Source of the DNA: a virus
Virus record (IMG/VR): IMGVR_UViG_3300033552_000015
Location: 1-49,943 of that record
Length of the DNA stretch: 49,943 nt
Strand: one strand, 5' to 3'
Position numbers and translations under genes: made by a program. Below are positions 6,201 through 39,437 of this stretch, in pieces. The notes below the pieces were generated by a model. It had not been told where the DNA came from and made no database searches. It saw only the letters and a program-made list of their open reading frames with translations. Every line of letters begins with the position of its first letter. Within the stretch, counting starts at the first letter, position 1.

Positions 6201-6236
6201 CGAATATCGAAGAATCAAAAATGCCAATAAACGACA
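6201..6236 (-). promoter_or_regulatory. Late promoter P1 (TGTCGTTTA element plus -7 box)
   Basis: Minus strand: TGTCGTTTA at 6236-6228, a 19-nt spacer, then GATATTCG (compare the Bacteroidetes -7 consensus TAnnTTTG), four more bases, then the ATG at 6196. The motif-to-ATG distance of 31 nt recurs at P2, P3 and P4. It lies in the gap after the 286-aa gene and would start the fibre/tail operon. Confidence 0.6.
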
Positions 6237-6243
6237 GTAGATT

Positions 6244-7104
6244 TTAAACTCTACTATTAGCTTTTGCTTCTTCAAAAGCGATGTGTTGCTCTTCTAAACC
6301 ATCAAGCACAAACATAGCATTGGTATATTTTAATTGCTCTGTAGTTCCCCACTTTGGACCTAGTAATTCTCTAAAAACAGTCATCCAGTCGGTAATATTT
6401 CCTTTTGTTTCTTCTGTTTCTTTCTCTGGAGCAGTTTCAGCTTCTTCGGGGGTTTTAATTGCTTTAGGAAAAACGCGTTGCCTGGCATCCATTACAGAAA
6501 GTAATGCAGATGAAAACCAGGTTATTACAGCAGTTTTATAGGGTGATGGAATTGAAGCAACGTCAAAGGCGTGTTTATAAAGTAAGTTTTCATTGAAAAT
6601 GTATCTCAAATCTCCCGTGTAATTCAAATTATTTTCATTTTGTTTAGGATCAGCAACCCGATACAGCGTAGCGATGAGCATGTTTAAGTATTTATCATCC
6701 TTAAACTCGTAATACAATTGGTAAAACTGATAAGCAAAACACCATTCGCCAAAACAAATATTACTTAAATCATCATTTGGGGCAATACATTCTTTTTTAT
6801 TGATTTTAAGTTTCGGAAATTTATTAATCACCGGTGGTCTGGTGTTTAATATAAAATCAATTAATGGCATCAATGCATAAAGCTGCTCATCATCAAAATA
6901 GGTAAGAATATGAAAGTTCTTTTGCTCAAACAATAATGAAATAAGGGAAACAAATACAGTGTCTTTATCTGCTTTGGCGTAGGTGAGAATTTGAAGTACA
7001 GAGGCGTATTGTTGCGGATTTAATTCTTCCCAATTTTCGGCAATGCTAACTTCATAATCGGTTAAATTTCCTAATCGCTGAAAGGTTCCGCTTACTTTTT
7101 TCAT
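6244..7104 (-). CDS. Conserved phage protein of unknown function, 286 aa
   Basis: A soluble protein, rich in Leu, Phe and Tyr, with an acidic insert (EEAETAPEKETEETKG, about residues 220-235). The C-terminal 50 residues (LLGPKWGTTEQL to ANSRV) form a helical tail. The start overlaps the spanin stop by one base (TGATG). It closes the operon that begins with the portal group and lies just before promoter P1. Being one gene before the tail genes, it might be a tail-assembly factor, but nothing in the sequence proves that. Copy B (48410-49270) encodes an identical protein. Confidence 0.7.
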   Translation of the reverse strand: MKKVSGTFQRLGNLTDYEVSIAENWEELNPQQYASVLQILTYAKADKDTVFVSLISLLFEQKNFHILTYFDDEQLYALMPLIDFILNTRPPVINKFPKLKINKKECIAPNDDLSNICFGEWCFAYQFYQLYYEFKDDKYLNMLIATLYRVADPKQNENNLNYTGDLRYIFNENLLYKHAFDVASIPSPYKTAVITWFSSALLSVMDARQRVFPKAIKTPEEAETAPEKETEETKGNITDWMTVFRELLGPKWGTTEQLKYTNAMFVLDGLEEQHIAFEEAKANSRV

Positions 7105-7643
7105 CAGATGGTTTTTTTAACAAGTATTATAAAAATTAAGATGATTAAGCCACCCAACCAAACGTACCAGGGAATACTTTGCATAATTCCATCGGTTACA
7201 ATTTCCTTTCTCTTTTGCTCTTTATTTTCTTGTTTTTGTTCTGCTGTTTTTTTAGCAGATGATTTCCCTGTTTTCTCATCTGTCCATTTTTCCTCAATAG
7301 TTGGCAGTTTGCCTTTTGATGCTGCATCAACCATATCTCTAAAATCTGCTTTTAGATCTTTAACAGTACTTTCTAGTTCCTTGGAGTTTAAATTTAATAC
7401 GGTTAAACTATTGAGTTTCTCAGTAAATTTTATTCCTTCAGATGTTATAAACGGATTGCTTACACCTCCGTAAGTAATCTTGCTATAAGTTTTAAAAGTT
7501 GATGTGTCTATTTCAGACTCTTCAACTGTTTTTTCCTCCTTAATTTCCGTTACAGTATTATCAATGGTCTTTTCTTTATTTTTAAAAAGAGCACAGCTGC
7601 TAAAAAAAAGCAATCCAATTAATATTACAAAAAGGTTTTTCAT
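7104..7643 (-). CDS. Predicted unimolecular spanin (outer-membrane lipoprotein with C-terminal TM helix)
   Basis: Residues 1-17 form a lipoprotein signal with lipobox LFFSSC, so Cys17 would be acylated. Residues about 20-155 are hydrophilic, charged and helix-forming (a Lys/Glu-rich stretch at 120-145). Residues about 158-175 are a strong membrane helix followed by KK. An N-terminal outer-membrane anchor and a C-terminal inner-membrane anchor in one chain is the architecture of u-spanins such as T1 gp11, which fuse the two membranes at the end of lysis. It lies directly behind the endolysin, holin and coiled-coil genes. Alternative: an unrelated lipoprotein that happens to carry a C-terminal helix. 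Confidence 0.75.
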   Translation of the reverse strand: MKNLFVILIGLLFFSSCALFKNKEKTIDNTVTEIKEEKTVEESEIDTSTFKTYSKITYGGVSNPFITSEGIKFTEKLNSLTVLNLNSKELESTVKDLKADFRDMVDAASKGKLPTIEEKWTDEKTGKSSAKKTAEQKQENKEQKRKEIVTDGIMQSIPWYVWLGGLIILIFIILVKKTI

Positions 7644-7653
7644 TTTATTTAAA

Positions 7654-7953
7654 TTATTCTTTATTTAAAAGTTTATCCAGTTTCATATTTATGATGATAA
7701 TGTCCGCCTTATTTAAACTTATGTTTTGCTTGTTCAGCTCGGCGGTTACGTTTAAAGTTTTTAACTCGGTTTTAATAATAGAAAATTCTTGTTTTTGCTC
7801 GGTGGTAAGTTCTTTCTTTTCAGTTTTCATATCCGCCAATTTTTCACCAAGCTTGTCAATTTTATTGTCCATTGTAACAATAAAAACAATAAACGTTACC
7901 AAATAAATCACGTACTGTATAATGTCTTTTGCTTTAATATTTAATGTTTCCAT
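7654..7953 (-). CDS. Small membrane-anchored coiled-coil lysis protein
   Basis: 99 aa. A single membrane helix (about residues 11-28, IIQYVIYLVTFIVFIV) is followed by a long heptad-like helix rich in Lys, Glu and Leu. This is the layout of XhlA/haemolysin-type accessory lysis proteins and also of inner-membrane spanin subunits. It sits between the holin-like gene (two bases downstream of its start) and the u-spanin, so a role in holin regulation or lysis is likely. The family is not certain. Confidence 0.65.
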   Translation of the reverse strand: METLNIKAKDIIQYVIYLVTFIVFIVTMDNKIDKLGEKLADMKTEKKELTTEQKQEFSIIKTELKTLNVTAELNKQNISLNKADIIIINMKLDKLLNKE

Positions 7954-7955
7954 AA

Positions 7956-8315
7956 TTATTCAACCTGTGTAATTTCTGTTTCTGTCTTAGTTGTAGCTGT
8001 TACCTTAATAGGTTCAGCAGTTCCTTTAAAAGCCCTAATGCCTTCATTAATATTTTGCACCGTTACAATTCCGAATATTAATAATATGGTTACGTTATAA
8101 ATTACTATCAACCATATTAAAGCCCACAAAGCTTTTACCGCTTCCGGGTTTGTTACTTTTTCTTTTATGATCCAAGTAACCAAATAAAGCACCCCGACTG
8201 ACAGGATCGTATTTAATATTACATACCAAACATTTGTTAAAGCCCTTGCAGAAGCTTTCCCGTCTTGCCCTTCCATTGATGGTTTTAGCCATTTAATTAA
8301 GTTCATATTATCCAT
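7956..8315 (-). CDS. Putative holin
   Basis: About 119 aa from ATG at 8313-8315; a second ATG at 8304-8306 is equally possible. The longer reading frame to 8384 would overlap the endolysin heavily and is unlikely. There are two membrane helices (NVWYVILNTILSVGVLYLV and ALWALIWLIVIYNVTILL) joined by a short charged loop, then a hydrophilic tail rich in Thr and Lys. Small size, two helices and position next to the endolysin fit a class II-like holin that permeabilises the inner membrane to time lysis. Confidence 0.65.
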   Translation of the reverse strand: MDNMNLIKWLKPSMEGQDGKASARALTNVWYVILNTILSVGVLYLVTWIIKEKVTNPEAVKALWALIWLIVIYNVTILLIFGIVTVQNINEGIRAFKGTAEPIKVTATTKTETEITQVE

Positions 8316-8757: not shown

Positions 8758-8766
8758 AGCAAAGGT

Positions 8767-9747: not shown

Positions 9748-9750
9748 GGC

Positions 9751-11121
9751 TTAGCTTGCTTCAGTAAAAATGGATGCTCCAGTATCTAGAGTTGCCAGGG
9801 CGGTATCTTCAACACCTAGTTTTAAATTAGGATCTAAACCGTTGCATAACTTGATAAAATCAAAAAATGAGTAGATGATATCACGGTCAACTTTTAACAT
9901 GGACCGCATCACTTCTAAAGATTCACGAATGTTTGAACCTCCGTTGTTGGCGCCTCCGGAGCTGGTGCCGCCAGTGTTGCCTTGCCCTGTAGTTGCAGGG
10001 TTAACCAACATTGAAAATAAAATCTCCGAGTTTGCTGCAGCTGCATCCGGCAGATAGGCATCATTACGCATTTTATCATCAATAACCTTTATAACCCATT
10101 GGCCAACGGGTTTTCCATCTTTTCCGGTAGAGTAAAAAGACATCAATGCTTTTTGTGCATTTTCGGCACCGGTCAGGCAATCTAAAATCTCATCATATAA
10201 TTCATCAATAAGCGTGTCTTGCTTATCTTCTGAAAGCGTGTTCCAGTTTTCGTATCTGAGTTTAAAATATTCCATTGGGATTTGGATATCATACTTCAGC
10301 GACATTTGATTTTTAAATAAAGCCTTTTTGTAAGCAGGAATTGAAGTGGCAATATCTAACCATCCTGATGCCCGGGCGCTATCCCAATAAACTACAGGGT
10401 AGTAATCATTCAACGGATCAGGCCAACGGATAGGGAAAGCATATTTAAAATCTTTTAAGTTTGATTTTATGCTTTCTACCTGTGAAGGGAATTGAAGATC
10501 ATCAATTACGGGTAATTCTAAACATTCACTAACCTTAGCCGCTGGGAAATTCCCTGATACATAAACAAAAGGAATACAGCCTGATTTTTCATCGATAGGA
10601 GCAAGGCGGCAATGAGAAACTTTATGGTAATTGATAGACCAAATCTTTTCCTTATTGCCATTAAAAATGAGCTCAGGTACGCACCAGCCAAAAAATGCAT
10701 AATCTTGTAAAAGTCCAACCCTGACTTTATTAAAGTTGCTTCGGTTTAAAATATCCTGCCATTCTTGAACGAATACTTTCTTAATTTTTACTTGTCCGGT
10801 TTTTTCATCAAATTGCTCTGTATAGGTAAAAAGACGTTGTCCGTATAAAGCTTTGGTGAATAAATGCAGGGCAGATCTACCAACTGTACTCTTTCTGATC
10901 AGTTGTATAATTTCTTTAGGGAAATTATCGCTAGCACCCCAAAGTATCCATTTATTTTTTCCTTGTTCTTCTTCTTCAGATGCTTTTCCGCTTTTATAAG
11001 TTCCTCCAGAGCTAGAAGCTTTAGCTGATGAATTTACACCAGTAATAACAGCTTGGGCGCCGCTTCTATAAACCAACAGGGGTTCGCCTCCCGTACCTCT
11101 TTTGATAACAGATTTGCTCAT
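9751..11121 (-). CDS. Portal protein
   Basis: 456 aa. After a Ser/Gly-rich N-terminus comes a portal-like core beginning WGASDNFPKEIIQLIRKS and continuing through an ALYGQRL segment. The C-terminal part has a Gly/Ser/Asn-rich flexible segment (about residues 373-390) before a final helical region. This is the pattern of portal proteins in Bacteroidetes prophages: a dodecameric ring at one capsid vertex through which TerL pumps DNA. Start and upstream stop overlap by four bases (ATGA). The gene is separated from the terminase by the inserted 11.5-14.6 kb island. Confidence 0.75.
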   Translation of the reverse strand: MSKSVIKRGTGGEPLLVYRSGAQAVITGVNSSAKASSSGGTYKSGKASEEEEQGKNKWILWGASDNFPKEIIQLIRKSTVGRSALHLFTKALYGQRLFTYTEQFDEKTGQVKIKKVFVQEWQDILNRSNFNKVRVGLLQDYAFFGWCVPELIFNGNKEKIWSINYHKVSHCRLAPIDEKSGCIPFVYVSGNFPAAKVSECLELPVIDDLQFPSQVESIKSNLKDFKYAFPIRWPDPLNDYYPVVYWDSARASGWLDIATSIPAYKKALFKNQMSLKYDIQIPMEYFKLRYENWNTLSEDKQDTLIDELYDEILDCLTGAENAQKALMSFYSTGKDGKPVGQWVIKVIDDKMRNDAYLPDAAAANSEILFSMLVNPATTGQGNTGGTSSGGANNGGSNIRESLEVMRSMLKVDRDIIYSFFDFIKLCNGLDPNLKLGVEDTALATLDTGASIFTEAS

Positions 11122-11390
11122 ACCCAGTATATTTCTTGTTTATTGTATTGAAAAATCAACCTGTTATGCACAGCGTATTTCTTACCAGTTTCCAGGTCTT
11201 TAATACCTCGCATATCATGAGTTTTGCAGTTTGGGGGTAAACCGCATTTGCAAGCGTTTACTAAAGAGATCAATTCGCCGCCAGTTTTGCGGTTAACATC
11301 ACAAGTCATAAAAACGAGGGCAAAGCTTCCGTTACCGTCTCTAAAATCTCGTTTATCAATTTCCCGAATTGCTTCTTTAAATGCTATCAC
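11118..11390 (-). CDS. Small Cys-containing late protein, 90 aa, GTG start
   Basis: A short basic protein with a central CKCGLPPNC segment and an upstream Cys, possibly metal-binding. The start is GTG at 11388-11390. The choice is supported by promoter P2, which places this codon exactly 31 nt after the TGTCGTTTA element, as at the ATGs of P1, P3 and P4. The stop overlaps the portal ATG by four bases, so the two genes are coupled. Function unknown. Confidence 0.7.
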   Translation of the reverse strand: MIAFKEAIREIDKRDFRDGNGSFALVFMTCDVNRKTGGELISLVNACKCGLPPNCKTHDMRGIKDLETGKKYAVHNRLIFQYNKQEIYWV

Positions 11391-11394: not shown

Positions 11395-11430
11395 TAAATA
11401 TCCGCACCTTAATTTTTTTGATAAACGACA
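11395..11430 (-). promoter_or_regulatory. Late promoter P2
   Basis: TGTCGTTTA at 11430-11422 on the minus strand, 19-nt spacer, GATATTTA as -7 box, and the GTG start codon 31 nt after the motif. It would drive the portal, adaptor and lysis operon through the 286-aa gene. It is back to back with the plus-strand HEPN-gene promoter. Confidence 0.6.
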
Positions 11431-12208: not shown

Positions 12209-12406
12209 ATGATGAACACTAAAGAAGCCTTTGAAAATCTTTGCCTAAATCAAGAAAAATGCGAAAGCATTGGTTTAAATGATAGCACACGCAAATCTTA
12301 TTTACGCCGTTTGCGGTTAAAACAAACATTGTCATTAGATAAGATGGAAGAAATATTAATTAAAGCCGATTATGAAGTAAAACAGGAAAAATTATGGAAG
12401 AATTAG
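12209..12406 (+). CDS. Small putative DNA-binding or antitoxin-like protein, 65 aa
   Basis: A short basic protein with a helical central part (TRKSYLRRLRLKQTLSLDK) and a C-terminal IKADYEVKQEKLW segment. It follows the HEPN-type gene by five bases, so co-transcription is likely. The start may be the ATG at 12209 or the next codon, 12212. Size and charge would suit a helix-turn-helix regulator or an antitoxin for the gene before it, but no motif settles this. Confidence 0.6.
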   Translation: MMNTKEAFENLCLNQEKCESIGLNDSTRKSYLRRLRLKQTLSLDKMEEILIKADYEVKQEKLWKN

Positions 12407-12944: not shown

Positions 12945-13979
12945 TTAATTTAATACTATATCATCAGTTTTTGCAAATGTTTGACAAATATTAAAAGCGG
13001 CTTGGGTTTTATTGTATCCACTACCCATCAAAACAGATTTTAATTTACTTTCAGCATCCTTGTAAGATTTTACATTTTGCAAATATCCGGTTACGGCATT
13101 ATATGCGCCAAACAAAGTTCCTTTAGTGGTGGTCATTTGTTGGGTTTCGTTACTCATGGCATATTCAAAAGCATTTTCTGTGATGTTTTTAAAACTGGTA
13201 GAAAGCAATTCTCTTTTGCCTTCTTCAATTGCAAATAAAGCTTCTTTACTTGGCGCCAAAGCTTTTTCTATCAGCTGTAAAACTTGTTTATCTGTGATTT
13301 GAATTTTCGCCCAGTGATTAAAAATATCTTCCATTTCATTGGCTAACTGGTTACTAATCCCCATTATTTTATGAGCCTGTTTTAAAGTTTCGGTTGCACT
13401 TTGCGTATGTCTAATTTTAAAAACGTTGCTACAATTTGCTAAAGCTGCATTTAATGTGTTATTGCAAACTATTCTAATAGGGGTAAAAGCTGCGGTTATG
13501 CTTCCGCTTCCATCATGGCTGGTAGTTAAAAAAATATATTTCTCTATTAAATCATCAGAACCAACTTTAATATAATCTGGCAGTTTTGCAGTAATAAAAA
13601 TTTTTTCTCCTAATCCTAAAGCTCCTGCGGTTTCATAAAAAACGCCATCGTTTGTTCCTGTAATCGCGTCAAAAAACGTAAAGGCTTGTTTATTTTGCAC
13701 TATCTCGTAATCCTTTCCAACAACTCCCAAAATTTGGTTGGTGTCGGTCCTTACGGTTGCAAAATTATTTTGAAGTTCGGCATCAGGGGTAAAAAAATCA
13801 TTTCCATAAGTAAAGAGTTTTCGCTTCTCTACTTCAAAATTTAAACCTGCAAAGTTTAAAGCTTCTTCGCTTGTGGGATAATCTTCTACTATCTGACCTA
13901 AATTGTGCCATACTTTTTCCCTTACTGAAAAAAAACTGTGTTGCTGTGTTAATTCGTTAAAATATAGTTTATGCGCCAT
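12945..13979 (-). CDS. DUF932 family phage/plasmid-like protein
   Basis: 344 aa. It shows features typical of DUF932/TIGR03299 proteins: an N-terminal VREKVWHNLGQ segment, a central GDV-like core with VGKDYEIVQN and FITTSHDGSGS-type blocks, and the TPIRIVCNNTLNAAL motif about residues 167-182. These proteins are common on phages, plasmids and ICEs; their biochemical role is unknown. The start overlaps the 44-aa upstream gene by 11 bases. With that gene and the 139-aa gene it forms the minus-strand arm of the inserted island. Confidence 0.85.
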   Translation of the reverse strand: MAHKLYFNELTQQHSFFSVREKVWHNLGQIVEDYPTSEEALNFAGLNFEVEKRKLFTYGNDFFTPDAELQNNFATVRTDTNQILGVVGKDYEIVQNKQAFTFFDAITGTNDGVFYETAGALGLGEKIFITAKLPDYIKVGSDDLIEKYIFLTTSHDGSGSITAAFTPIRIVCNNTLNAALANCSNVFKIRHTQSATETLKQAHKIMGISNQLANEMEDIFNHWAKIQITDKQVLQLIEKALAPSKEALFAIEEGKRELLSTSFKNITENAFEYAMSNETQQMTTTKGTLFGAYNAVTGYLQNVKSYKDAESKLKSVLMGSGYNKTQAAFNICQTFAKTDDIVLN

Positions 13980-17272: not shown

Positions 17273-17840
17273 TGATAGCCTCCTTTATCCATTTTATATT
17301 TTCATTGGCAAGCTCATCATCCCAAATAATTATCCCAACTTCAGTTCGTGGATTTCTAGTGTAATTAGCAGAAGTTAGCAAAGTGATTTTATGGGTATCA
17401 TTTTCTATAATTGTGATTTTTGCATGTAGTGCAGTAAATTTTAAATTCTCAAACATGGCAACCGCACTCTGATAAATCTCAGGCTTTCTGTTTCTCAAAC
17501 CATTATCAATGATTGTATAGAGATTTTTGATTTGTCCGGTTTCTTTCCAAACGTTAAAACGCCTAATGGCTTCTTCAGAAATTGACCAGGTACATAAGTA
17601 AACATTTGCTTCACCCGTTTGCTTAAGCAAGTATTCTAATATTTCTATGTTAGACCACGCCCCATCAGTTCTAAAGAATTTGCAAAAACCCTTTTTAAGT
17701 TGATTTATGCTTATTTCCAATTCTTTTTTGGAACGCCCATTTACAAAACTTCCCTTATATGGAAATTCTAATGAAGCTGATTTATTGATTTCATCTGCAG
17801 TATTATTTTTATTGATTTCTGATATACTAAAGAGACTCAT
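17262..17840 (-). CDS. Phospholipase-D-like protein, probable nuclease
   Basis: 192 aa with one HKD-type half-site: His139-x-Lys141 (LHAKITII), then Asn159 (TSANYT) and Glu167 (RTEVGI). Single-motif PLD proteins such as Nuc work as dimers and cut DNA or RNA. It lies in the packaging operon directly upstream of the terminase genes, so a role in processing DNA ends, or in degrading host or competitor nucleic acid, is plausible. The first ~45 residues are low in motif content. Overlaps at both ends (14 and 11 bases) indicate tight coupling. Confidence 0.75.
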   Translation of the reverse strand: MSLFSISEINKNNTADEINKSASLEFPYKGSFVNGRSKKELEISINQLKKGFCKFFRTDGAWSNIEILEYLLKQTGEANVYLCTWSISEEAIRRFNVWKETGQIKNLYTIIDNGLRNRKPEIYQSAVAMFENLKFTALHAKITIIENDTHKITLLTSANYTRNPRTEVGIIIWDDELANENIKWIKEAINAN

Positions 17841-18510
17841 TCGCCATCCTTTCTTTGATCAGTTTTAAACGATATTCTCGATCTTGCAGGCGTTTTGCAA
17901 CATCTGCCTGTTTTTTGGGTTCGGTTAAATTTTTAAGTTTAGTTCGATCCTTTGAAATATTAGGCTTTAAGTTATTAAGCTCTTTATAAAGTTGAGAGGT
18001 GGTAAGCTCTGATACATCTGTTTCAGTTACCTCTTTCTCAAGCTCTCTAATTCGGCCGTTATCTTTCCATTCATTAATAGCACTCCACGCATCGTAAACA
18101 TATTCCATATGTTTTATTAGCTGTAAACCAGCTTCTAATCGATGCTCCTGGTTATCCATTATCCTAATACTTTCATGGAGTTTTCTCGCCCTGGCATAAT
18201 GATCATTTTTATTTTTAATGATTTCTTGAATGGCTTCTGGAGCCGATTCATAATCAACACCGTATTTGCCCCCAATTTCTTTAGTGGTTGCAATTACATC
18301 AGGAATAGTGATTTGCTTAGGTTCTAAATTGGCAAGTTTGTTTAAATCCTCCAGAGCCAACAGAAGTTTTTTAAAGTGGAAGTTGGTAGATCCTGTTTTA
18401 AAAAGAGTTTGTAAAGTTTTGCTTTCCCCGTACTGCTCATATAGCAACCTGCCGTTATGATAGTTTTTTTCTTTAGAATTTAACCAATTAGTAATGGATG
18501 CAATTGCCAT
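17827..18510 (-). CDS. Conserved helical protein heading the packaging operon, 227 aa
   Basis: Start at ATG 18510 rather than the ATG at 18525: promoter P3 puts the former exactly 31 nt after its TGTCGTTTA element. The protein is largely alpha-helical and highly charged, with a C-terminal coiled-coil-like stretch (DVAKRLQDREYRLKLIKE). No enzyme motif is visible. It overlaps the PLD-like gene by 14 bases. It might be a packaging accessory or scaffold-like factor; unknown. Confidence 0.65.
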   Translation of the reverse strand: MAIASITNWLNSKEKNYHNGRLLYEQYGESKTLQTLFKTGSTNFHFKKLLLALEDLNKLANLEPKQITIPDVIATTKEIGGKYGVDYESAPEAIQEIIKNKNDHYARARKLHESIRIMDNQEHRLEAGLQLIKHMEYVYDAWSAINEWKDNGRIRELEKEVTETDVSELTTSQLYKELNNLKPNISKDRTKLKNLTEPKKQADVAKRLQDREYRLKLIKERMANESL

Positions 18511-18514: not shown

Positions 18515-18550
18515 CAATGATGCAAAAAGGAAATTGCCCGTTAAACGACA
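18515..18550 (-). promoter_or_regulatory. Late promoter P3
   Basis: TGTCGTTTA at 18550-18542 follows the stop codon of the 82-aa gene directly. It has a 19-nt spacer, CATCATTG as -7 box, and the ATG (18510) 31 nt after the motif. It would drive the terminase operon down to 14939. Confidence 0.6.
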
Positions 18551-21489: not shown

Positions 21490-22860
21490 TTAAGAGTTTA
21501 AAGTTTTGTCAGCAGCTCTATTATGGGCCAAGCCTGCAAGAATAGTGGCTGTATCTTCCGCATCTCCTGGAGGCGTGTCTTCGCCAGGCTTTAGAGTGTG
21601 TATTGAACCAGCGTTTTTACCAAAAGCTTCAACTTTTGCCGACAAATCAGCAATTGTAGTTGCGTTAGTTGCAATCGCAGCATTAGCAGTAGCTAATGCA
21701 GTTTCTGCAGTAGTTTTTGCAGTGGTTAATTCTACAATAGATGCATTTGCAGCAGCTAAATCTGTGGTTACCTGTGCAGCTTCAGTAATAAAACTTTCTT
21801 CTACCAGGGTTACTTTGGTAATTCCCGCTTCAGTTAGATCTGCGTTAGCTAAATCTATTTTCTCTGTTGTTGGAGCATCAACCCCAACTAGAGCAGTTAA
21901 ATTTTCAAATTTCATATTATTCGGATTGTTGATTGGTGACGATGGTGTTGCTTTTATAATTTGCCCCTTCTGTAGTGAGGAAACTAATTCTTGAAAGGAT
22001 AGAATTCCATCAATTAAGCCTATTTCTAAAGATTCTTGAGCGGTGAAAACTTTGCCAGTATTCCAGCTGTCGTTTTTTAATTTGCCCGCTCGGTTTTCTG
22101 CAAATGCTTCTCTGAATGATAATGCCAAATTGGCGATATCCTCTTTTATGAGGGTATCATCATTTTTTTCAAATATGTCTCGGTAGCCTTTATTTTTATC
22201 CTTACTTACATCCGGATAAACAGTTTTAATTTTTATACCGGCTTTTTCATAGTAGCCATCAAAATTGGCTAGGGTGGTGTAAGCGCCAATACTTCCAAAA
22301 CCACAATGTTTATCGGCACAGTAAATTAAATCATGGCCACTAGCAACCCAAGCTCCAGCGCTGTAAGCTCCGCCAGAGATAAAAGCAACCGTAGGTTTTT
22401 GAATAGATTTTATAAAATCCGCGTATTGTGGAGTTCCATCAGCTTGCCCACCAGGAGAATCAATCCAGTTGATTACGGCTACAATGTTTGGATGATTGGC
22501 AAGCTCAGCAGCCCAACCGGTTCTTTTAATAATACCAGGTTCGCCACAACCGCCGTTATATTTCATTACCGGACCGATAAATGGAACAACTCCCACACTT
22601 CCGGGGGTTATTAATGAGGTATTGATATGCAATCCTTTTTCCCTGGTGTAATACCAAACATTTACTCTTTTACCAGAAGCATCAATTATGTAAGGATCTT
22701 CTGTTTCTCCGCTTCCTGTTAAAGTTTCATTGCCATTAAGTTGAGGATTAAAGTTAGCACCTGTTAAAATCGAAGTTACTAATGGCAGATAGGATTCAGC
22801 GGCTTCCTGGCTGATAAGCCAAGCGCCTCTTAATATTGCCGATAGGGTATGATTAAACAT
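21490..22860 (-). CDS. Head maturation protease (S49/SppA-like) fused to a scaffold domain
   Basis: 456 aa. Residues about 85-300 form an S49/ClpP-like fold: WIDSPGGQADG (132-142), then the nucleophile Ser167 in SGGAYSAGAW, and a downstream Lys-rich region. Residues about 340-415 are an Ala/Thr-rich coiled coil (TTDLAAANASIVELTTAKTT), typical of an internal scaffold. This is the lambda C/Nu3 plan, where protease and scaffold share a gene. An in-frame ATG at residue 316 (21913-21915) could start a separate scaffold protein. Promoter P4 fixes the start at 22860. The capsid gene follows. Confidence 0.85.
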   Translation of the reverse strand: MFNHTLSAILRGAWLISQEAAESYLPLVTSILTGANFNPQLNGNETLTGSGETEDPYIIDASGKRVNVWYYTREKGLHINTSLITPGSVGVVPFIGPVMKYNGGCGEPGIIKRTGWAAELANHPNIVAVINWIDSPGGQADGTPQYADFIKSIQKPTVAFISGGAYSAGAWVASGHDLIYCADKHCGFGSIGAYTTLANFDGYYEKAGIKIKTVYPDVSKDKNKGYRDIFEKNDDTLIKEDIANLALSFREAFAENRAGKLKNDSWNTGKVFTAQESLEIGLIDGILSFQELVSSLQKGQIIKATPSSPINNPNNMKFENLTALVGVDAPTTEKIDLANADLTEAGITKVTLVEESFITEAAQVTTDLAAANASIVELTTAKTTAETALATANAAIATNATTIADLSAKVEAFGKNAGSIHTLKPGEDTPPGDAEDTATILAGLAHNRAADKTLNS

Positions 22861-22864: not shown

Positions 22865-22900
22865 CAAAGGTGCGCTTAGCATCCAAACGCATAAACGACA
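22865..22900 (-). promoter_or_regulatory. Late promoter P4
   Basis: TGTCGTTTA at 22900-22892 on the minus strand, 19-nt spacer, CACCTTTG as -7 box (good TTTG half), ATG at 22860 exactly 31 nt after the motif. It starts the protease, capsid and tube operon. It lies in the 45-base gap after the 157-aa gene. Confidence 0.6.
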
Positions 22901-22905: not shown

Positions 22906-23379
22906 TTACAGATACTTTGGCGCTCTAAAAACGGACCGACCAGCAAATTTAAAGTTGTAACCTTTGGCATCGCTTCTTTGTCCGCCAGAGTCAAAGTCAG
23001 CGCTAAATTCTAAAGGTTCTAGTGGGTAACCAACTAATTTTTTTAAACTTCTATCATTAACAATCACAAAAAACTTCTTTACCTGCTCCATTTCAGCAAT
23101 TAGCGTTTTCAATTCGTGTGAATCCCCTGGCATAAAGCCTGTAATTAACTGCTCGAAAACGTCTCCCTGCTCACTATCCTTTACAGTTTCTCTAAATCGT
23201 AAGCTTTCATGTGTTGCGTAGCCATTAAGCCATGTTTTACCAGTAAATAAAGTTAAAGCTGTGATTAAAGCATTATTAATTACCTGAGGGAAGGTTATAA
23301 CCTGGAATGCGGGAACAAATTGAAAACTACTTAGGCCACCTAAGTTTTGTTTTGGATTTGCAGGAAAATTAGTGATCAT
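22906..23379 (-). CDS. Conserved virion-type protein, 157 aa
   Basis: A soluble beta-rich protein with PLEPLEFSADFDSGGQRSD (about residues 118-136) near its C-terminus. This pattern occurs in a recurring Bacteroidetes prophage protein found among structural genes; its role is not known to me. It lies between the putative regulator and P4, so it may be transcribed with the regulator rather than from P4. Possible minor head or tail component. Confidence 0.6.
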   Translation of the reverse strand: MITNFPANPKQNLGGLSSFQFVPAFQVITFPQVINNALITALTLFTGKTWLNGYATHESLRFRETVKDSEQGDVFEQLITGFMPGDSHELKTLIAEMEQVKKFFVIVNDRSLKKLVGYPLEPLEFSADFDSGGQRSDAKGYNFKFAGRSVFRAPKYL

Positions 23380-23456: not shown

Positions 23457-23924
23457 TCACGCTGATTTACAAAGCTTTACCGTTTTATTTTTACGCTCCC
23501 AAATCTTTTCCATGGTTTTGTAGCCCAACTCATCCTCACTGATCTGATATTTTTCCCTAAACAAAAGCAGGTTTTTTCTAATGTCTCCTTTTGCACCAGT
23601 ATTGTTTTCATTGATGCGCTCAATCATCCTTTCAACAAATTCTTCATACAGGTAATTGTTAAACCGGTATTGGTGGCGTTCGCTAATGATAAATCCCATG
23701 TTTCGCTCATAATGCTCGGGGATAGCAATTTTTAATTTTACCGTGTTGGGGATGCTATAATTGTGAGGTAAATCTTCCTGTTCTTTTTTATGCCGTAAAG
23801 AGTTGATGAGGAATATCCCGAACCTGTTTTTTTCGGTAAGAACAAAATGAGGGTCTATTTTTACATAGTGAGCCATGTATTTTAGCATAGCTTTTTTTAC
23901 TGAAATGTTGTAACTCAAAAGCAT
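23457..23924 (-). CDS. Putative transcription regulator, candidate late-gene activator, 155 aa
   Basis: A basic protein with an N-terminal helical part, a middle NTVKLKIAIPEHYERN strand region, and a C-terminal LLLFREKYQISEDELGYKTM segment with the spacing of a helix-turn-helix. Proteins of this general make-up are common regulators on Bacteroidetes mobile elements. Its promoter region carries a repressor-type operator at 23964-23983, identical in arms and spacing to one in the lysis-lysogeny switch. It lies just before the late genes, so it is the best candidate for an activator of the TGTCGTTTA promoters. That last step is inference. Confidence 0.55.
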   Translation of the reverse strand: MLLSYNISVKKAMLKYMAHYVKIDPHFVLTEKNRFGIFLINSLRHKKEQEDLPHNYSIPNTVKLKIAIPEHYERNMGFIISERHQYRFNNYLYEEFVERMIERINENNTGAKGDIRKNLLLFREKYQISEDELGYKTMEKIWERKNKTVKLCKSA

Positions 23925-25261: not shown

Positions 25262-26146
25262 ATGTTTTACAGACGAAAAATTATATTAGGCCTGATGCAA
25301 GCTTTTGACGGAAATTTGCCTAAAATATCCTTGCAAAAACTGCTTTTTTTGTTTGCAAATAGACAATCCAAGCCTGATTATGATTTTGTTCCTTATAAGT
25401 ACGGCTGCTATTCATTTTCAGCTAATGCCGACCTTACAGCAATGGTTGGACATGGGCAATTATCGGAAGATCAAACGAGTTTTACAAAAATTGGTTCAGT
25501 TGACTATGTAAAAACGTTAAACGAAAAGGATAAAAAAATCTTGATTGACATTAAAACTACTTATGGTAAGTTGACAACTAATTCTTTGATGAAATTAACT
25601 TACTTGAACTACCAGTATTATGCAATCAATAGCGTTAAGGCAAAAGAAATTTTAAATGAAGAACAATATGGCAAGGTTTTAAAAGCAAAACCAATCAATG
25701 CTAATACAATCCTTTATACGATTGGCTACGAAGGAATTTCGTTAGAAGAGTATTTAAATCGGTTGATTAAAAATGATGTAAAGGTTTTAGTGGATGTTAG
25801 AAACAATGCCCTAAGCATGAAATTTGGTTTTTCAAAAACACAATTAAAAACTTTTTGTGCCAGCTTAAACATTGAATATTTGCATATACCAGAAGTTGGT
25901 ATTCAATCTAACCAAAGACAGGAATTAAAAACACAGACCGATTACGACAATCTTTTTGACATTTATAAAAAGCAGAATTTAAAGAAAACTACAAGCCAGC
26001 AACAACAAATTTTAAGCTTATTAAAAGAGAAAAAGAGAATTGCTTTAACTTGCTTTGAAGCGAATATTTGCCAATGCCACAGAAAACATTTAGCGGAAGC
26101 AATTATAACATTACCTGAATGGAATTATGAATTAAAACATATTTAG
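25262..26146 (+). CDS. Antitoxin-like (Panacea/SocA-like) domain fused to a DUF488 domain
   Basis: 294 aa. Residues 1-140 resemble the SocA/DUF4065 (Panacea) fold (KISLQKLLFLFAN, DFVPYKYGCYSF). Residues 150-285 are a DUF488 domain: YTIGYEG (152-158), LVDVR (176-180), GFSK, and the signature CFEANICQCHR (264-274), where Cys and His could bind metal or act in catalysis. DUF488 function is not established; it is common in accessory DNA. The gene is on the plus strand against the phage operons and is followed three bases later by a partner gene. A defence or DNA-modification-related cassette is plausible. Confidence 0.7.
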   Translation: MFYRRKIILGLMQAFDGNLPKISLQKLLFLFANRQSKPDYDFVPYKYGCYSFSANADLTAMVGHGQLSEDQTSFTKIGSVDYVKTLNEKDKKILIDIKTTYGKLTTNSLMKLTYLNYQYYAINSVKAKEILNEEQYGKVLKAKPINANTILYTIGYEGISLEEYLNRLIKNDVKVLVDVRNNALSMKFGFSKTQLKTFCASLNIEYLHIPEVGIQSNQRQELKTQTDYDNLFDIYKKQNLKKTTSQQQQILSLLKEKKRIALTCFEANICQCHRKHLAEAIITLPEWNYELKHI

Positions 26147-26149
26147 TTT

Positions 26150-26971
26150 ATGGCGTTGACCAAAGTTCTTATTGCTGTTAAAACATACCCTACTCTTTCA
26201 AGCAAGTATGACGAACTTGTTTGCACGGCAGGTTTTCTTGAAGATGGGCGTTGGATAAGGGTTTACCCAATTCCATTTCGGAAACTTGAATATGATAAGC
26301 AATACAGTAAATATGATTGGGTTGAAGTTGACCTTGAAAGAAATAATTCTGACTTCCGTTTAGAAAGCCATAAACCTAAAGCAATCGAAACCGCTTTTAC
26401 AATTGTTGACCATTTAGGAACAGAAGATGGTTGGAGATTTAGAAAAGAAATTGTACTCAAAAATGTACACACCAACATGACTGACTTAATTGCGGAAGCA
26501 AAAGACCCGAAAAAATATACTTCGCTTGCCGTTTTTAAGCCCACCGAAATATTAAGCTTTGAAATTGAAAAGGCAGAAAGAGAATGGGATAAAGATAAAT
26601 TAGCTCAACTCAAAGCAAATGCCCAGCAACTTGACCTTTTTAAAAATTCAGACAACCCTTTTGAAGTAGTTAAAAAACTACCATACAAATTTTCGTATAA
26701 ATTTAAAAGTGAAGATGAAAAGGAAAGAACTTTAATGATTGAGGATTGGGAAATTGGACAACTATATTGGAATTGTTTGAGACGACACGAAGGCGATGAG
26801 GCAAAAGCTTGTGCAGATGTTAAGAAAAAATATTTCGATGACTTTGCAAAAACGAAAGACTTGTATTTATTCTTAGGAACAACGAGAGTACACCACCTTA
26901 GAGCACCAAATCCGTTTGTAATTATTGGAACATTCCATCCTAAGAAAATAGAACAGACTTCATTATTCTAA
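26150..26971 (+). CDS. Conserved partner of the DUF488 protein, 273 aa
   Basis: Begins with KVLIAVKTYPTLSSKYDELV; WIRVYPIPFRKL (about residues 35-46) is a recognisable conserved block. The C-terminal LFLGTTRVHHL and PFVIIGTFHPKK blocks are also of a type seen in accessory regions of many bacteria. No known catalytic motif. It starts three bases after the DUF488 gene stop, so the two are co-translated and probably work together. I recall similar proteins near DUF488 genes, but cannot name a system. Base composition seems slightly different from the phage genes, consistent with separate acquisition. Confidence 0.65.
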   Translation: MALTKVLIAVKTYPTLSSKYDELVCTAGFLEDGRWIRVYPIPFRKLEYDKQYSKYDWVEVDLERNNSDFRLESHKPKAIETAFTIVDHLGTEDGWRFRKEIVLKNVHTNMTDLIAEAKDPKKYTSLAVFKPTEILSFEIEKAEREWDKDKLAQLKANAQQLDLFKNSDNPFEVVKKLPYKFSYKFKSEDEKERTLMIEDWEIGQLYWNCLRRHEGDEAKACADVKKKYFDDFAKTKDLYLFLGTTRVHHLRAPNPFVIIGTFHPKKIEQTSLF

Positions 26972-32436: not shown

Positions 32437-32976
32437 TTAAGCAATACCTAATTCAATCGCTTTCACTGCTACATGAGCCTTTCGCTCTACATTTAATTTT
32501 AGTCTGATATTTTGCTCATGAACTCTAAGCGTGTTGGGAGAAATTCCCATCATTGCCGCTATTTCTTTATCAAAAAAGCCAGCTCTGATATATGCGGTAA
32601 CCCGCAGCTCACTCATGGTTAAATGAGTGCCATTTTTTAAATGAATAACTCTGCAAAGCTTTCCTTCAAATTGGCATTTGCCTCTAAAAACGCATTTGCA
32701 GTATTCGTTCTGAAACTTGCCATCCTTTAAATCCGGAGTAAAATCATAGGATGAAGCGTTACATTTAAGAAACTGATTGATTTGCTCGTGAAAATCTAAC
32801 AAGCCCCAACTCATTAAACTTTTACGCTGCAAATCATCAATGGCCATGTCAACCATTTTTAAGATTGGCGTAGGCAAATCTTTAATTTCAATGTGATTGC
32901 CTTCATGTTTAGCAATCATTCTTTTCTCGAATTCAAAGAATTCAGTCTCGCCAGCTTTTATCCCTACAGGTATCAT
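32437..32976 (-). CDS. LuxR-type regulator with a four-Cys cluster
   Basis: 179 aa. The C-terminal 60 residues (about 119-179) form a LuxR/GerE helix-turn-helix: LTMSELRVTAYIRAGFFDKE, then IAAMMGISPNTLRVHEQNI. Upstream, CKCVFRGKCQFEGKLC places four Cys (93, 95, 101, 108) as a possible zinc or iron-sulfur site, which might sense metal or redox. It is second in the early operon and overlaps the Cro-like gene by four bases, so it is expressed once the repressor is lifted. It could control middle or late promoters or a host response. Confidence 0.7.
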   Translation of the reverse strand: MIPVGIKAGETEFFEFEKRMIAKHEGNHIEIKDLPTPILKMVDMAIDDLQRKSLMSWGLLDFHEQINQFLKCNASSYDFTPDLKDGKFQNEYCKCVFRGKCQFEGKLCRVIHLKNGTHLTMSELRVTAYIRAGFFDKEIAAMMGISPNTLRVHEQNIRLKLNVERKAHVAVKAIELGIA

Positions 32977-35139: not shown

Positions 35140-35142
35140 AGT

Positions 35143-35427: not shown

Positions 35428-38400
35428 TTAACCACTCGCATCATTTTTAACTTGAATCCTTTTTGAACTTTCGTCTTCAAAAACTCTTTGAGAAAAAACA
35501 ATTGGTTTTTCCATTTCAGCCTGTTGTACTTTCATCAAATTTTCCATCATCATTTCTAACCTATCCAATTTGTCAGATTTATTTGACTGACTAAATTTTG
35601 GCGTTTCTGTTTTAGAAGTTTGTTCACTATTAAAACCGCCCAAAGCAAAGCTCCGCTTATCCAGCCTAGCCATTTCCAAATTATTTATGATGCCGCTAAA
35701 CCTTGGGTCGGTAAGCATCCAATTTGGAGCAATCCATTCTTTACCTGCTTCGCCAGCAATAAACGGACGCCCACTCGCACTATTATTAAACATGGTGCTT
35801 GATGAAACATAACCTGCTGGGTCTTTATTAGTCATTCCACCACCAGCAAATTTAGGGGCTTTTTGCGCCACAATTACCGCAGTTTGAGCTAATGCAGCTG
35901 CACCAGCAAAAACAGCTAAGGGAATATTTGGTAAGGCTTTTACAACTGCCAAAGCTCCATTTATTATCGCTTGGCCAATAGCTGCTGCTTTTTCAGCTTT
36001 CCATGCTCTAAGCCTTTCTGCTCTGGCTTGAGCTTCGTACTTCTCATTTATTGTTTGCTTTTGAGCCTCTGTTAATCGTTTGTTTGATAATTCAGCGTTT
36101 CTTTGCTGTTCTATATTATTTAAAGTTTCTTGACTTTGAGCTTGTTGACCATTTCTAATGATACTAAAAACAGTATCAGATACTAATTCTGCATATTGAA
36201 TAATAGTGTCCTTTTTTTCCTTTTCAGTTTTATCATTCCATTTCTTTTTAACTGCAGCTATCCTACTTTGTAAGTTTTCCTGAAGTTGAATTTCTATCTC
36301 TGCAAACTGAGCATCAGTTATAACTTTCGCTTCATGGAAAGCATATAATTGTTTCCAGGCACTCTCATATTTATCGCCCTCATTAGCAACCTCTATTTGC
36401 TCCGGAGTAAAATCTTTTCTAAAATCTGTTACATCAATTTCATTTTGCAACTCATTTTTAAACTTTACAAACTCCTTCAGCTTTTCTTCATATTCTTTTT
36501 TGGTTTTATCTGCAGCTTGTTTTTGAAACTTTAAGCCTATGGCTTCAATTTCATCAAACTCCTTTTTGTAAAGCTGGGAGATCAGCTCCTTATTTCCATG
36601 AGCAAGCTCAGCAAGCTTTTGATATTTTACACCAGCTTCATAAACCTCTTTATCAAAACCCTCTAATTGGTCTTTAGCAATGTCCTGGTTTATTTTTAGT
36701 AATTCATCTTTAAGCTTTTCTTGGTCTGCTTTTATCTTATCCCTTTTTTTCTTAGCCTCGTCAATTTCTTTTTTTGACGCACTGGATCCACTAGATCCTC
36801 CACCACCTAACAATTCTGGATTTGTATTAGGCACATCAAAACCACCGGTTAAAAACTTATTAATACCATTGCCTTGTGTAGCGGTTATAGATTTTAACCT
36901 TGCATTATTTTGATCAACTAATTCTTTTCTCTTCTCGCCCTTAATGGTATTGTAAGAACCTCCGGATAAATAGCCGCCAATTATTTCACCGTAACCAACT
37001 TCAACATCACCTCCATTTTGTAGATCAATGTTTTCTTGAAGCAATTTCTTTTTTAAGTTATAGGCAGCTTCGGCCATTAATTTTGCATCCAAATTTTTAA
37101 TATAGGCGGCAATCGCTGCAGATCCTTTATTGGTTAAAATTTCTTCATCACTTAAACCTTTTAAATAGTCTCCAGTAAGCTCCCTCAACTGCTCTAACAG
37201 TTTTTTCTTCTCTGCTGTTTCTAAGTTTTGATTTGCTAATGCATCCGTAATTGCTTTAATTCTATCCTTTTGTTCTACCGTATTTTTTAAAGCTTCGGCT
37301 TCAATAGCCTCTAAGTCTTTTAATTGTCTTTGGGCATCTGTTACACTGCTACCATATAAGTAAAATGCGGCTGCTAATGCAGTAATTGCCGCTAATGCAA
37401 TTCCCCAGGGGTTTGCATTCATTAATACCATTAATAGTTTTAATTCTTGCCTTGCTTTAGATAAGTTTCCAGTAAAAACAGCGGTTATCAAGCCCATTGC
37501 AGTAGTTCTGGCAATTTGTAAGTTTTCTAATACGGCTGCTGATATTAAACTACTAATCCAAGCCTTTTTCTGTGTTGTAGCTAAAAATGTGGCAAGGTTA
37601 TAAGCCCCCCAGGCAATAACTGCAATCACCAAAACTTTGGCAATTGATTTTATTGCAGCCATGCTTTTCTCAACGCCTTCAATAAATGATAAACTACCTT
37701 TTACTAAGCTGGTAAATAAGTTTACTAAGGTTACATTGGTTGTTAAGCGGTTAAATGCTTTACTCAACCTGTCTAGCGTACCTCCAAGGGTTTCATTTTT
37801 TAAGGCAAAAGCCGCATTAATTTCGGCAGTTTCTTGTATTGCATCTTTACCAGCTTCAATTTTGCCTCTCATAAAATCGGCATTGGTACCTATTGTTGCA
37901 ATGGTTGTAATTACTCTTTGCCCTTCTTCTCCGGCATCTTTAAAAGCTTTGGCTACTTCAGAAAAAGCATTTTTGTTTGCAACCAAACCTTGCGAGTACC
38001 TGATCAATGCTTCATCAGGACTATTATCAAATATTTGCTTAAATTCTTTGAATCCCATGCCTGCAACCTTTGCAGCAGCTGGCAGATTTACAGCAATATC
38101 TGATAACACTTTTTGTATCGCAGTTGATGAGCTTTCACTTCTTTGTCCTAATTCTTCCAATCCGGCACCTAATCCAACAACAGCGCCCAGGCTAAATCCT
38201 GCAGTTTTTGTAAGAGAGGAAACCCGTTGAGTAAAGTCGGCCATAAATGCACCGGTAGCCACACCATCATTGGCTAACTTTATAAAAGCGTTACCAAGTT
38301 TGGATATGTTTTCGCCGTTAACTTCGCCATCAAAAACATTTAATATTTTACCTAATTGAGTGGTTATTTGGTCGGCATTACCTAATTCATCTCCTAAAGA

Positions 38401-38940
38401 AACTACCAGTTTATCTGTAGCTTGTGTAAAACCTAAAATCTCATTTTTGGCCACACCAAGTTTACCAGCAACAATAGCAATATCCCTTAAACCGGAAAGG
38501 CTTGTTCTGGTATCAATAGTTTTAAAGCTTTTGTTTAGCTTCATCACCTCTTGCTCCGTAAGGCCAGCAACTCTACGCAAATCTGCAAGGCTATCAGATA
38601 GCTTTGCATTGCTCATAATGATGTTAGTGAATTGGCTGGTTATAAATTGTAGTCCTAAATAGCCAGCTGCTAAAGCGCCAAACTTGCCGACTTCTGTTTT
38701 TAACCATCCAAATGCACCGCCAACTCCTTTTATTTCATTCTGAATATCTTGCAGGTACTTTTTATTAGCCTGCACTTCTTTCATTTTTCTATTCCAAGCA
38801 TCAGTACCTATTTCGAGGCTTTTTAGCTCTTTAGAAAGTGAGCGGCTTACTTGCTCAACGTTTTTTAAGGAAGATTCCGCAGGCTTGCCATCAATATAGA
38901 GGGTTGCCTTAACGGATTTAGGTACTGTACCAGTTGCCAT
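35428..38940 (-). CDS. Tail tape measure protein (TP901-type)
   Basis: 1170 aa. The N-terminal third has TP901-type repeats: LRRVAGLTEQEVMKL, then LSGLRDIAIVAGKLG and SLTKTAGFSLGAVVG. Hydrophobic segments at about 435-460, 503-525 and 990-1025 could cross the host membrane during DNA entry. The middle and C-terminal parts are long coiled coils rich in Lys, Glu and Gln. The protein sets tail length and occupies the tube. Its length indicates a long tail, hence a siphovirus-like virion. It is coupled to the 144-aa gene upstream by a four-base gap. Confidence 0.88.
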   Translation of the reverse strand: MATGTVPKSVKATLYIDGKPAESSLKNVEQVSRSLSKELKSLEIGTDAWNRKMKEVQANKKYLQDIQNEIKGVGGAFGWLKTEVGKFGALAAGYLGLQFITSQFTNIIMSNAKLSDSLADLRRVAGLTEQEVMKLNKSFKTIDTRTSLSGLRDIAIVAGKLGVAKNEILGFTQATDKLVVSLGDELGNADQITTQLGKILNVFDGEVNGENISKLGNAFIKLANDGVATGAFMADFTQRVSSLTKTAGFSLGAVVGLGAGLEELGQRSESSSTAIQKVLSDIAVNLPAAAKVAGMGFKEFKQIFDNSPDEALIRYSQGLVANKNAFSEVAKAFKDAGEEGQRVITTIATIGTNADFMRGKIEAGKDAIQETAEINAAFALKNETLGGTLDRLSKAFNRLTTNVTLVNLFTSLVKGSLSFIEGVEKSMAAIKSIAKVLVIAVIAWGAYNLATFLATTQKKAWISSLISAAVLENLQIARTTAMGLITAVFTGNLSKARQELKLLMVLMNANPWGIALAAITALAAAFYLYGSSVTDAQRQLKDLEAIEAEALKNTVEQKDRIKAITDALANQNLETAEKKKLLEQLRELTGDYLKGLSDEEILTNKGSAAIAAYIKNLDAKLMAEAAYNLKKKLLQENIDLQNGGDVEVGYGEIIGGYLSGGSYNTIKGEKRKELVDQNNARLKSITATQGNGINKFLTGGFDVPNTNPELLGGGGSSGSSASKKEIDEAKKKRDKIKADQEKLKDELLKINQDIAKDQLEGFDKEVYEAGVKYQKLAELAHGNKELISQLYKKEFDEIEAIGLKFQKQAADKTKKEYEEKLKEFVKFKNELQNEIDVTDFRKDFTPEQIEVANEGDKYESAWKQLYAFHEAKVITDAQFAEIEIQLQENLQSRIAAVKKKWNDKTEKEKKDTIIQYAELVSDTVFSIIRNGQQAQSQETLNNIEQQRNAELSNKRLTEAQKQTINEKYEAQARAERLRAWKAEKAAAIGQAIINGALAVVKALPNIPLAVFAGAAALAQTAVIVAQKAPKFAGGGMTNKDPAGYVSSSTMFNNSASGRPFIAGEAGKEWIAPNWMLTDPRFSGIINNLEMARLDKRSFALGGFNSEQTSKTETPKFSQSNKSDKLDRLEMMMENLMKVQQAEMEKPIVFSQRVFEDESSKRIQVKNDASG

Positions 38941-38944
38941 GAAA

Positions 38945-39379
38945 TTAACGGATTAGAATTTTTTGAATACGAGCAATAACTTTATCGCCGTGGTAGTCTA
39001 CAATGATGTTTGCCAGGTCGGGGAATTGGTTTTCAACTATAGGATTAAACCAGGGTTTAGCCACCCTTTTACCGGTGCCCATTTTGCCTGAACTTGTAGC
39101 GCTTGTTTTGCTTTTACCTCCTGAAGAGTTAGTAAATTGCTTACTGATGGATCCACCGTAACCACGCCCAGCGCCTTTATGTACAAACACTAAATAATAA
39201 GGGAAAGCAAATGATATTTTAGAAGCTTCGCCAGCATACTTAGCAGTTTTTACATTTACACCTTCTTTACCTTGACCGCTGTAAACAGCTGTAAGTTGTA
39301 TAAATTCCTTTTTAAGCTTTAGCCTGGTGTCTCTAGCCCAATTACTTACTTCTCGGTTATAAATATCTACTCTAGCCAT
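38945..39379 (-). CDS. Conserved tail-module protein upstream of the tape measure, 144 aa
   Basis: A basic protein with conserved blocks SKISFAFPYYLVFVHKGAGR (about residues 53-72), a Ser/Gly/Lys-rich loop (SGGKSKTSATSSGKMGTG) and AKPWFNPIVENQF. In Bacteroidetes prophages such a protein often precedes the tape measure gene; it may be a tail-completion or minor tail protein. It is the first gene after the late element at 39402-39437. Confidence 0.65.
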   Translation of the reverse strand: MARVDIYNREVSNWARDTRLKLKKEFIQLTAVYSGQGKEGVNVKTAKYAGEASKISFAFPYYLVFVHKGAGRGYGGSISKQFTNSSGGKSKTSATSSGKMGTGKRVAKPWFNPIVENQFPDLANIIVDYHGDKVIARIQKILIR

Positions 39380-39401
39380 AAAAAAAGCGATGATTCTATT
39401 A

Positions 39402-39437
39402 CGAATATCGCTGTAGGCTAATCATTGGTAAACGACA
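39402..39437 (-). promoter_or_regulatory. Late promoter P5 (49-nt version)
   Basis: TGTCGTTTA at 39437-39429, 19-nt spacer, GATATTCG as -7 box (same as P1). The ATG at 39379 is 49 nt from the motif instead of 31, so an 18-nt leader is predicted. The gap 39380-39543 also holds a purine-rich tract with repeated AAGGAG (39450-39497). Confidence 0.5.

Follow-up and report, generated by a model that had tools for sequence, protein, structure and literature searches.

What turns on the late operons of the virus in IMG/VR record IMGVR_UViG_3300033552_000015, and why does the 9-mer TGTCGTTTA recur in front of them? The window, by which we mean the whole 49,943-base stretch analyzed here, encodes an integrase, a DUF5906 primase-like gene, a head protease, a portal protein, a terminase and a tape measure protein, and probably represents a temperate phage with a genome of ~42 kb and a Pedobacter-like host. 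An initial annotation of this DNA had interpreted the 9-mer as a phage-specific late promoter. Our analysis supports that interpretation and extends it well beyond the window: the element is almost certainly a phage-specific late promoter class. To the full account, in which this promoter class combines a host −7 box with an octamer read by a phage protein, most likely one of 155 amino acids (aa), we assign a probability of roughly 0.72.

The repeated element and its conservation

Six exact copies of TGTCGTTTA are present in the window, all on the minus (late) strand, where shuffling predicts 0.34; none of 100 window shuffles reached six. The copy at 48394-48402 is a second copy of the first promoter within a terminal repeat, duplicating 6228-6236, and is not independent, leaving five distinct sites. 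P1 (6228-6236), with the −7-like box GATATTCG at 6201-6208, precedes the start codon at 6196 of a 159-aa gene (5717-6196) that opens the fibre operon. P2 (11422-11430; box GATATTTA, 11395-11402) precedes a GTG start at 11390, which belongs to a 90-aa gene (11118-11390) followed by the portal gene (phrog_11226). P3 (18542-18550; box CATCATTG, 18515-18522) lies before the start at 18510 of a 227-aa gene (17827-18510), which is followed by an endonuclease in the terminase operon (terminase, phrog_2). P4 (22892-22900; box CACCTTTG, 22865-22872) lies before the start at 22860 of the head maturation protease (phrog_53; 21490-22860), and P5 (39429-39437; box GATATTCG, 39402-39409) before the start at 39379 of a 144-aa gene (38945-39379) that precedes the tape measure gene (phrog_25337). 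All of these features are on the minus strand. The distance from motif to start codon is 31 nucleotides (nt) at the first four sites and 49 nt at the fifth, and all five boxes begin 19 nt past the motif. The five motif positions, their strand, both distances, the boxes and the chance expectation below one are thus exactly as first annotated.

Allowing one mismatch in the 9-mer gave 15 matches in the window against 13 expected, so that the exact 9-mer alone is informative. A matrix was trained on 63 sites in other phages, leaving out the window's own sites and a doubled upstream copy from record G011; it scored the window sites at 13.9-30.9 and the next-best window position at 2.6; the maximum over 20 Markov simulations of one strand was 7.7. 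No copy lies inside a gene and no other window position scores near the promoter sites, which bears out the earlier claim that the motif is exclusively intergenic. The element heads several late operons in the same orientation and does not occur elsewhere in the genome. Most relatives have an additional slot before a ~158-aa gene; no such site was found before position 23379 of the window.

Prophages related to the window phage occur in Pedobacter terrae DSM 17933 and Pedobacter sp. Leaf250, and a DNA search among phage records gave no near match to the window. Protein similarity, with no use of the motif, led to three related records (protease 31%, terminase 60% and 66% identity), and these carry the motif with identical box and spacing. 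Eight further relatives were first found with a strict motif, box and ATG pattern, which makes the motif a condition for them; a motif-blind terminase profile returns these eight records too. Together, the 11 records hold 54 copies of TGTCGTTTA, all on one strand in each record. Forty-one copies lie 30-34 nt before a start codon, 34 of them at exactly 31 nt, and the remaining 13 fall mainly in the tape-measure slot (45-57 nt), in the protease slot of three records (60-63 nt) or in the doubled copy of G011. The slots precede mostly orthologous genes across relatives. Within prophage regions, five copies were counted in Leaf250, six in P. terrae and five in G048; record G004 and the P. terrae prophage are duplicates, and a further copy in the Leaf250 stretch lies on the opposite strand and does not fit the pattern. 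Redundant or stray rows were dropped as follows: the second window copy from the logo, box-offset and inverted-repeat analyses; G013, the same phage as G004, from the 155-aa tree and the box-offset, matrix and inverted-repeat analyses; one other identical protein from the tree; and a minus-strand copy of G012 outside the prophage from the box-offset, matrix and inverted-repeat analyses. Conservation of motif and spacing thus holds in relatives, including the three found by protein alone and the wide set returned by the terminase profile.

Inverted repeats were also observed at some of these sites. In the P3 slot of several relatives (e.g., L052-L054, L019 and L025), GCAATTGCCAT and ATGGCAATTGC form an inverted repeat across the −7 box and the start codon, which might be an operator or a packaging site. 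In the tape-measure slot, inverted repeats that differ in sequence overlap the promoter box and leader; 6 of 13 sites, one of them a doubled copy of another slot, reached p ≤ 0.05 against shuffles, compared with 10 of 56 sites in other slots. The window's own inverted repeat at 39380-39412 was not significant (p = 0.17 against shuffles).

To assess use by the host, 399 Pedobacter-family genomes, drawn from a larger group, were scanned with the pattern TGTCGTTTA-N23-TTNG-N4-ATG. Seven genomes matched at 13 places, nine of which lie in three multi-copy (prophage cluster) genomes and four of which are single, as against 19 places for a reversed control pattern in the same 399 genomes. The element is therefore no commoner than chance outside prophages, and host polymerase alone probably does not use it. 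This scarcity supports the proposal that a phage activator is needed, and we consider a requirement for such a factor quite likely. A match in a Roseibacillus metagenome-assembled genome and three of the single host matches look like chance. The fourth (G222) shares 43 identical bases with phage locus L079 and is probably a prophage.

Promoter geometry and octamer classes

The logo of 59 sites reads C-TGTCGTTTA-YCA, ~15 loose bases, C-GAYATTYG, four bases and ATG, with the leading C present in 48 of them. The box matches the positions favored by the Bacteroidota sigma-A factor (A2 in 49, T5 in 56, T6 in 58 and G8 in 52 of 59 sites) and departs from TAnnTTTG at T1, which is G in 38, C in 16, T in 3 and A in 2. 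A/T-rich stretches lie 5-8 and 14-18 nt upstream of the motif. There is no TTTG −33 element: the equivalent letters are TTTA in the exact motif, by construction of the search, and CTTT, ACAA or TTAA in the other classes described below.

A Flavobacterium psychrophilum study places the sigma-A box TAnnTTTG at −12 to −5 (PMC9723704). If GAYATTYG is taken to occupy these positions, the start codon begins at +1 and TGTCGTTTA covers −40 to −32, which includes the −33 region. In the window, four nucleotides separate the end of the box from the start codon at the first four sites. Leaderless mRNAs, with +1 predicted on the start codon, are therefore likely at most window sites; what supports this part of the initial annotation is the position of the box. 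The fifth site keeps the spacing between motif and box and has a predicted 18-nt leader, and hence is no exception to the promoter. Leaderless mRNAs amount to 5.5% in F. psychrophilum, and 5′ leaders under 10 nt to about 3.7% in Bacteroides (PMC7366714).

Beyond near relatives, the exact 9-mer is mostly gone. A terminase profile returned 71 loci with identities from 67% down to 22%, and, of 33 loci searched for 8-mers at a fixed ATG offset, about a dozen contained TGTCGTTT, TGTCCTTT and words that overlap these. Across 60 terminase-related loci (L079-L138), TGTC[GC]TTT occurs at 164 forward and 45 reverse sites, and an ATG opening at least 40 codons follows at 38, 39, 40 and 41 nt in 9, 26, 55 and 8 cases, with 0-6 at other offsets; these loci include near-copies, and their counts are not independent. 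Over 300 letter permutations of this word, the mean at offset 40 was 0.43, even including the near-identical TGTSCTTT (50), and the next highest value was 7. Fourteen words with other letters at position five or eight gave 0 or 1 each at 39-41 nt. As TGTCGTTT or TGTCCTTT, the layout is kept at terminase identities down to ~26% (L117, two sites). A scan with the C-type pattern returned at least 78 new loci, of which 71 of 78 hold a match whose ATG opens at least 40 codons; other copies of TGTCCTTT there number 38 on the same strand and 11 on the opposite strand.

Among 64 phages with a homologue of the 155-aa protein, G- and C-type near-start sites (37-43 nt) never occur together; this count leaves out L002, L003 and L070-L078, which are the same records as G001-G011. 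Ten of the 64 have neither type, and three of these (L120, L138 and BT-TP2) show TGTCCTTT once longer leaders are allowed. Single near-start sites with A or T as the fifth letter were found in 5 of 64. A de novo 7-mer search in Flavobacterium phages 6H and laban6-1 detected no element; a listing of upstream regions then revealed that each has an octamer of its own. In laban6-1, TGTCACAA occurs five times on the late strand, and in 6H, TGTCTTAA occurs four times, with no copy of either on the opposite strand; both sit 19-20 nt before a box-like sequence. The observed repetition of octamer plus strict box was reached in 0 of 100 simulations for laban6-1, 1 for 6H, and 0 each for MT835542 and Yong924-1. 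Within the set checked, each phage has one octamer class. A TGTC core followed by four letters that differ from phage to phage but stay the same within each is what would be expected of a phage-encoded reader.

Microcystis phage Mea-Yong924-1 (L139, MZ447863.1) has TGTCCTTT promoters and a 155-aa homologue. Its terminase is 30% identical to that of the window and 40% to that of L118, and its listed cyanobacterial host may be wrong.

The distance between octamer and box is constant while the start codon moves. Of 166 sites followed by an ATG at 37-43 nt, 92% have the box TT at +32; of 62 sites followed by an ATG only at 44-74 nt, 89% do. At other offsets TT is mostly at or below 22%, except at the neighboring 31 and 33. 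Similarly, a full box at +27 to +29 is present at 135 of the 166 leaderless-type and 51 of the 62 leadered sites, with no more than 7 at any other offset. These results argue for a promoter rather than a translation signal. Several start codons of BT-TP2 and 022a lie 55-57 nt from the octamer, corresponding to a leader of ~15-17 nt. At 34 octamer sites without an open ATG within 74 nt, the box is at +28 in 17. This common layout with phage-specific sequences points to a shared, little-studied way of switching on virus assembly genes. Whether it amounts to a Bacteroidota-wide phage system, in which a new protein family would replace sigma recognition at −33 and read TGTC plus a clade-specific GTTT, CTTT, ACAA or TTAA in one geometry, often with leaderless late mRNAs, we regard as an even bet.

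The candidate reader and alternative explanations

The candidate late activator, or reader of the TGTC element, is a 155-aa protein encoded at 23457-23924 (minus strand), between the early genes and the first late promoter at the border with the head genes. Clustering of 12 near-complete records by blastp gave 18 families common to 12/12, of which just two, the integrase and the 155-aa family, lie outside the late block; such clusters would miss diverged genes such as the primase. A first hidden Markov model profile of the family matched 13/13 records (one phage counted twice), and a wider 38-row profile found one copy in each of 17/17 records. Many distant terminase relatives also carry the gene upstream of the head genes. 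Among the C-type loci, a homologue was found in 10 of 78 (at least 78 returned, many of them short). With a single 155-aa protein as query, tblastn gave no match in the named phages, which the family profiles alone reach; a sister profile had no match among reversed proteins. On this co-occurrence and gene position, the 155-aa protein is the somewhat favored reader of the element.

The members from 6H and laban6-1 belong to PHROG 21888, to which no function is assigned. An AlphaFold model of the 155-aa protein (pLDDT 93) shows a strand-helix-helix arrangement twice. From residue ~94 onward, this model matches several helix-turn-helix chains, with Z scores of 2-4.7 that are too weak to use. A ribbon-helix-helix fold was considered and did not gain support from this better model: an earlier model aligned to an F relaxosome chain at Z 5.0, which is absent from the list obtained with the better one (maximum Z 4.7 against the PDB). 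Among viral models at E 0.001, the sole match is the Leef_1 homologue (E 7e-7, TM 0.77). In a 62-row tree of the family, all 21 G-type proteins cluster together with support of 100/99, indicating that the change between G and C classes happened once on the tree.

Several observations weigh against the account given above. Concerning the reader, none of ten family members scanned belongs to a Pfam family at cut-off; the family profile matched no PDB sequence at E 0.001, and its four matches up to E 10 (best 0.019) include no transcription factor; and a PDB fold search with the models gave no clear match, so that DNA binding is putative. With the wider profile, BT-TP2, 6H and Ingeline_1 give weak matches that are confined to the C-terminal half (E 1.5e-5, 2.2e-5 and 2.5e-4). 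A single class change is no repeated co-change of reader and site, and the presence of the gene throughout could reflect shared descent. Five loci (L101, L121, L125, L126 and L131) have the 155-aa gene and no repeated octamer in the DNA examined. Concerning the element, eight of the 11 near relatives were found via the motif itself, though the terminase profile returns them. Support from simulations is weaker for BT-TP2, Ingeline_1 and 022a (2, 4 and 5 of 100), and Leef_1 fails the strict-box test, with 1 of 6 TGTCCTTT sites boxed and 88 of 100 simulations reaching this number. L123 has three C-type near-start sites together with one G-type site on the other strand; no 155-aa homologue was found in its DNA examined. 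Finally, half of the 34 ATG-less octamers lack a box at +28, and some octamers may thus be chance.

The same promoters might instead be read by a 179-aa regulator from the early operon (32437-32976, minus strand) with a C-terminal LuxR/GerE helix-turn-helix domain (PF00196). This regulator is an unlikely reader, although it has a recognized DNA-binding domain (GerE, 39 bits against a cut-off of 23.5). Its relatives occur in Flavobacterium and other phages, and GenBank annotates LuxR-type regulators in 6H, Leef_1, laban6-1 and Ingeline_1. Against this reading, it is found in 6 of 10 Pedobacter-clade records, some of which may be cut there, and in 8 of 12 with prophages included. PF00196 matches in four of seven named phages, three of them above cut-off, in a search that missed the annotated regulator of Leef_1. 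BT-TP2 and 022a, both of which have the TGTCCTTT octamer with a box, gave no LuxR/GerE match.

It is improbable that these sites are diverged host-type promoters served by the host holoenzyme alone, with TGTC+NNNN merely a −33 element that phages prefer. The box does keep sigma-A A2, T5, T6 and G8 at the proper distance, and the upstream A/T-rich stretches resemble polymerase contacts. Yet box position T1 is G or C at 54 of 59 sites, and host genomes, prophages aside, contain the element no more often than chance predicts. Moreover, a shared host factor does not predict octamers that vary between phages and stay constant within one, as seen in the sets checked. A phage-encoded sigma factor reading octamer and box together would fit a two-part promoter of fixed spacing; it is very doubtful in view of a box that is still host −7-like and of Sigma70_r2, which was unmatched in 10/10 records at E 1 and matched in 11 of 14 control genomes. 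A translation or packaging signal, suggested by the tight start-codon spacing at most sites and by the inverted repeats overlapping some relatives' sites, can hardly be reconciled with an octamer-box spacing that is kept with the start codon 44-74 nt away, or with the scatter of four or five sites over each genome, ahead of different late operons.

Based on these data, we propose the following mechanism for late transcription from a phage-specific promoter. The host RNA polymerase, carrying the primary sigma factor of Bacteroidota, would contact the −7 box (NANNTTNG, a relaxed TAnnTTTG), while a phage DNA-binding protein, most likely the ~155-aa protein from the early/late gene junction, would read the octamer TGTC+NNNN at −40 to −33 in place of the host −33 element. 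Late operons would then fire only once this reader has been made. In Pedobacter-type phages, we infer that transcription starts on the start codon at most sites, giving leaderless mRNA; a leader of ~10-30 nt is predicted at the tape-measure site, and at most listed sites of the Bacteroidales phages BT-TP2 and 022a and of 6H and laban6-1. If this is correct, the late operons of many environmental and gut phages could be recognized from their sequence, a functionally uncharacterized protein family would gain a testable role, and leaderless mRNA would be predicted for structural genes in hosts that scarcely use it. It would also supply promoters that can be switched in Bacteroidota, together with naturally matched sites and readers in which changes of promoter specificity can be studied.

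Other features of the window and comparison with known systems

Positions 4501-7777 of the window recur 42,166 bases further on with zero mismatches, so that the contig looks like a phage genome of ~42 kb read beyond its closure. The contig ends (1-7777 and 42167-49943) are mutually repeated; positions 1-760 are 97.5% alike, and the fibre gene at 1421-3459 is just 29-63% alike between the copies in an ungapped comparison. This divergence probably means either that two fibre alleles went into the assembly of a circular genome or that the fibre gene is variable. Genes for a DUF488 protein and a phrog_25907 protein (25262-26971, plus strand) lie between the early and late regions and are possibly a passenger pair. 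A DUF932 protein (12945-13979, minus strand) is encoded amid otherwise structural genes, between the terminase and portal genes. A small opposite-strand reading frame (12209-12406, plus strand) adjoins the portal operon and has relatives in 9 of 12 near-complete records.

Among the open-access papers listed, we found no account of a late promoter or late activator for these Bacteroidota phages; subscription journals were mostly outside this search, and the result does not establish that no such account exists. PMC8776804, in its accessible part, nowhere uses the word "promoter". The closest parallels come from better-known systems.

As in promoters of the Bacteroidota primary sigma factor (−33 TTTG and −7 TAnnTTTG; PMC9723704 and PMC7366714), the box is placed at −12 to −5 and keeps A2, T5, T6 and G8. 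Unlike those promoters, the late element has mostly G or C at T1, C or T at T7, and a phage-specific octamer in the −33 region. Leaderless mRNAs are rare in Bacteroidota hosts, whereas they are predicted at most sites of Pedobacter-type phages.

A repeated motif close to start codons is also known from the start-associated sequences of mycobacteriophages, to which the initial annotation had pointed; here, by contrast, what recurs is a promoter element at −40 that is paired with a box. In phage Mu (Mor/C) and other phages with late activators, a small phage protein switches on several dispersed late promoters. Mu C is described as a late activator in PMC4461284. The Mu system differs from the present one in its host and in the geometry of its sites.

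The arrangement is reminiscent of the middle promoters of phage T4, which work by sigma appropriation, retain a host −10-type box and carry a phage element over the −35 region, a likeness seen here in sequence and spacing. The T4 MotA box, which is read by a small phage protein, ends in TGCTTtA, and its distance to the host box is 12 ± 1 nt (PMC2988021), compared with 19-20 nt here. Forty of the 96 open reading frames of the window were scanned with PHROGs, and none of these matched MotA or AsiA. The promoters described here further differ from those of T4 in being late rather than middle, in their predicted leaderless starts and in belonging to phages of another host phylum.

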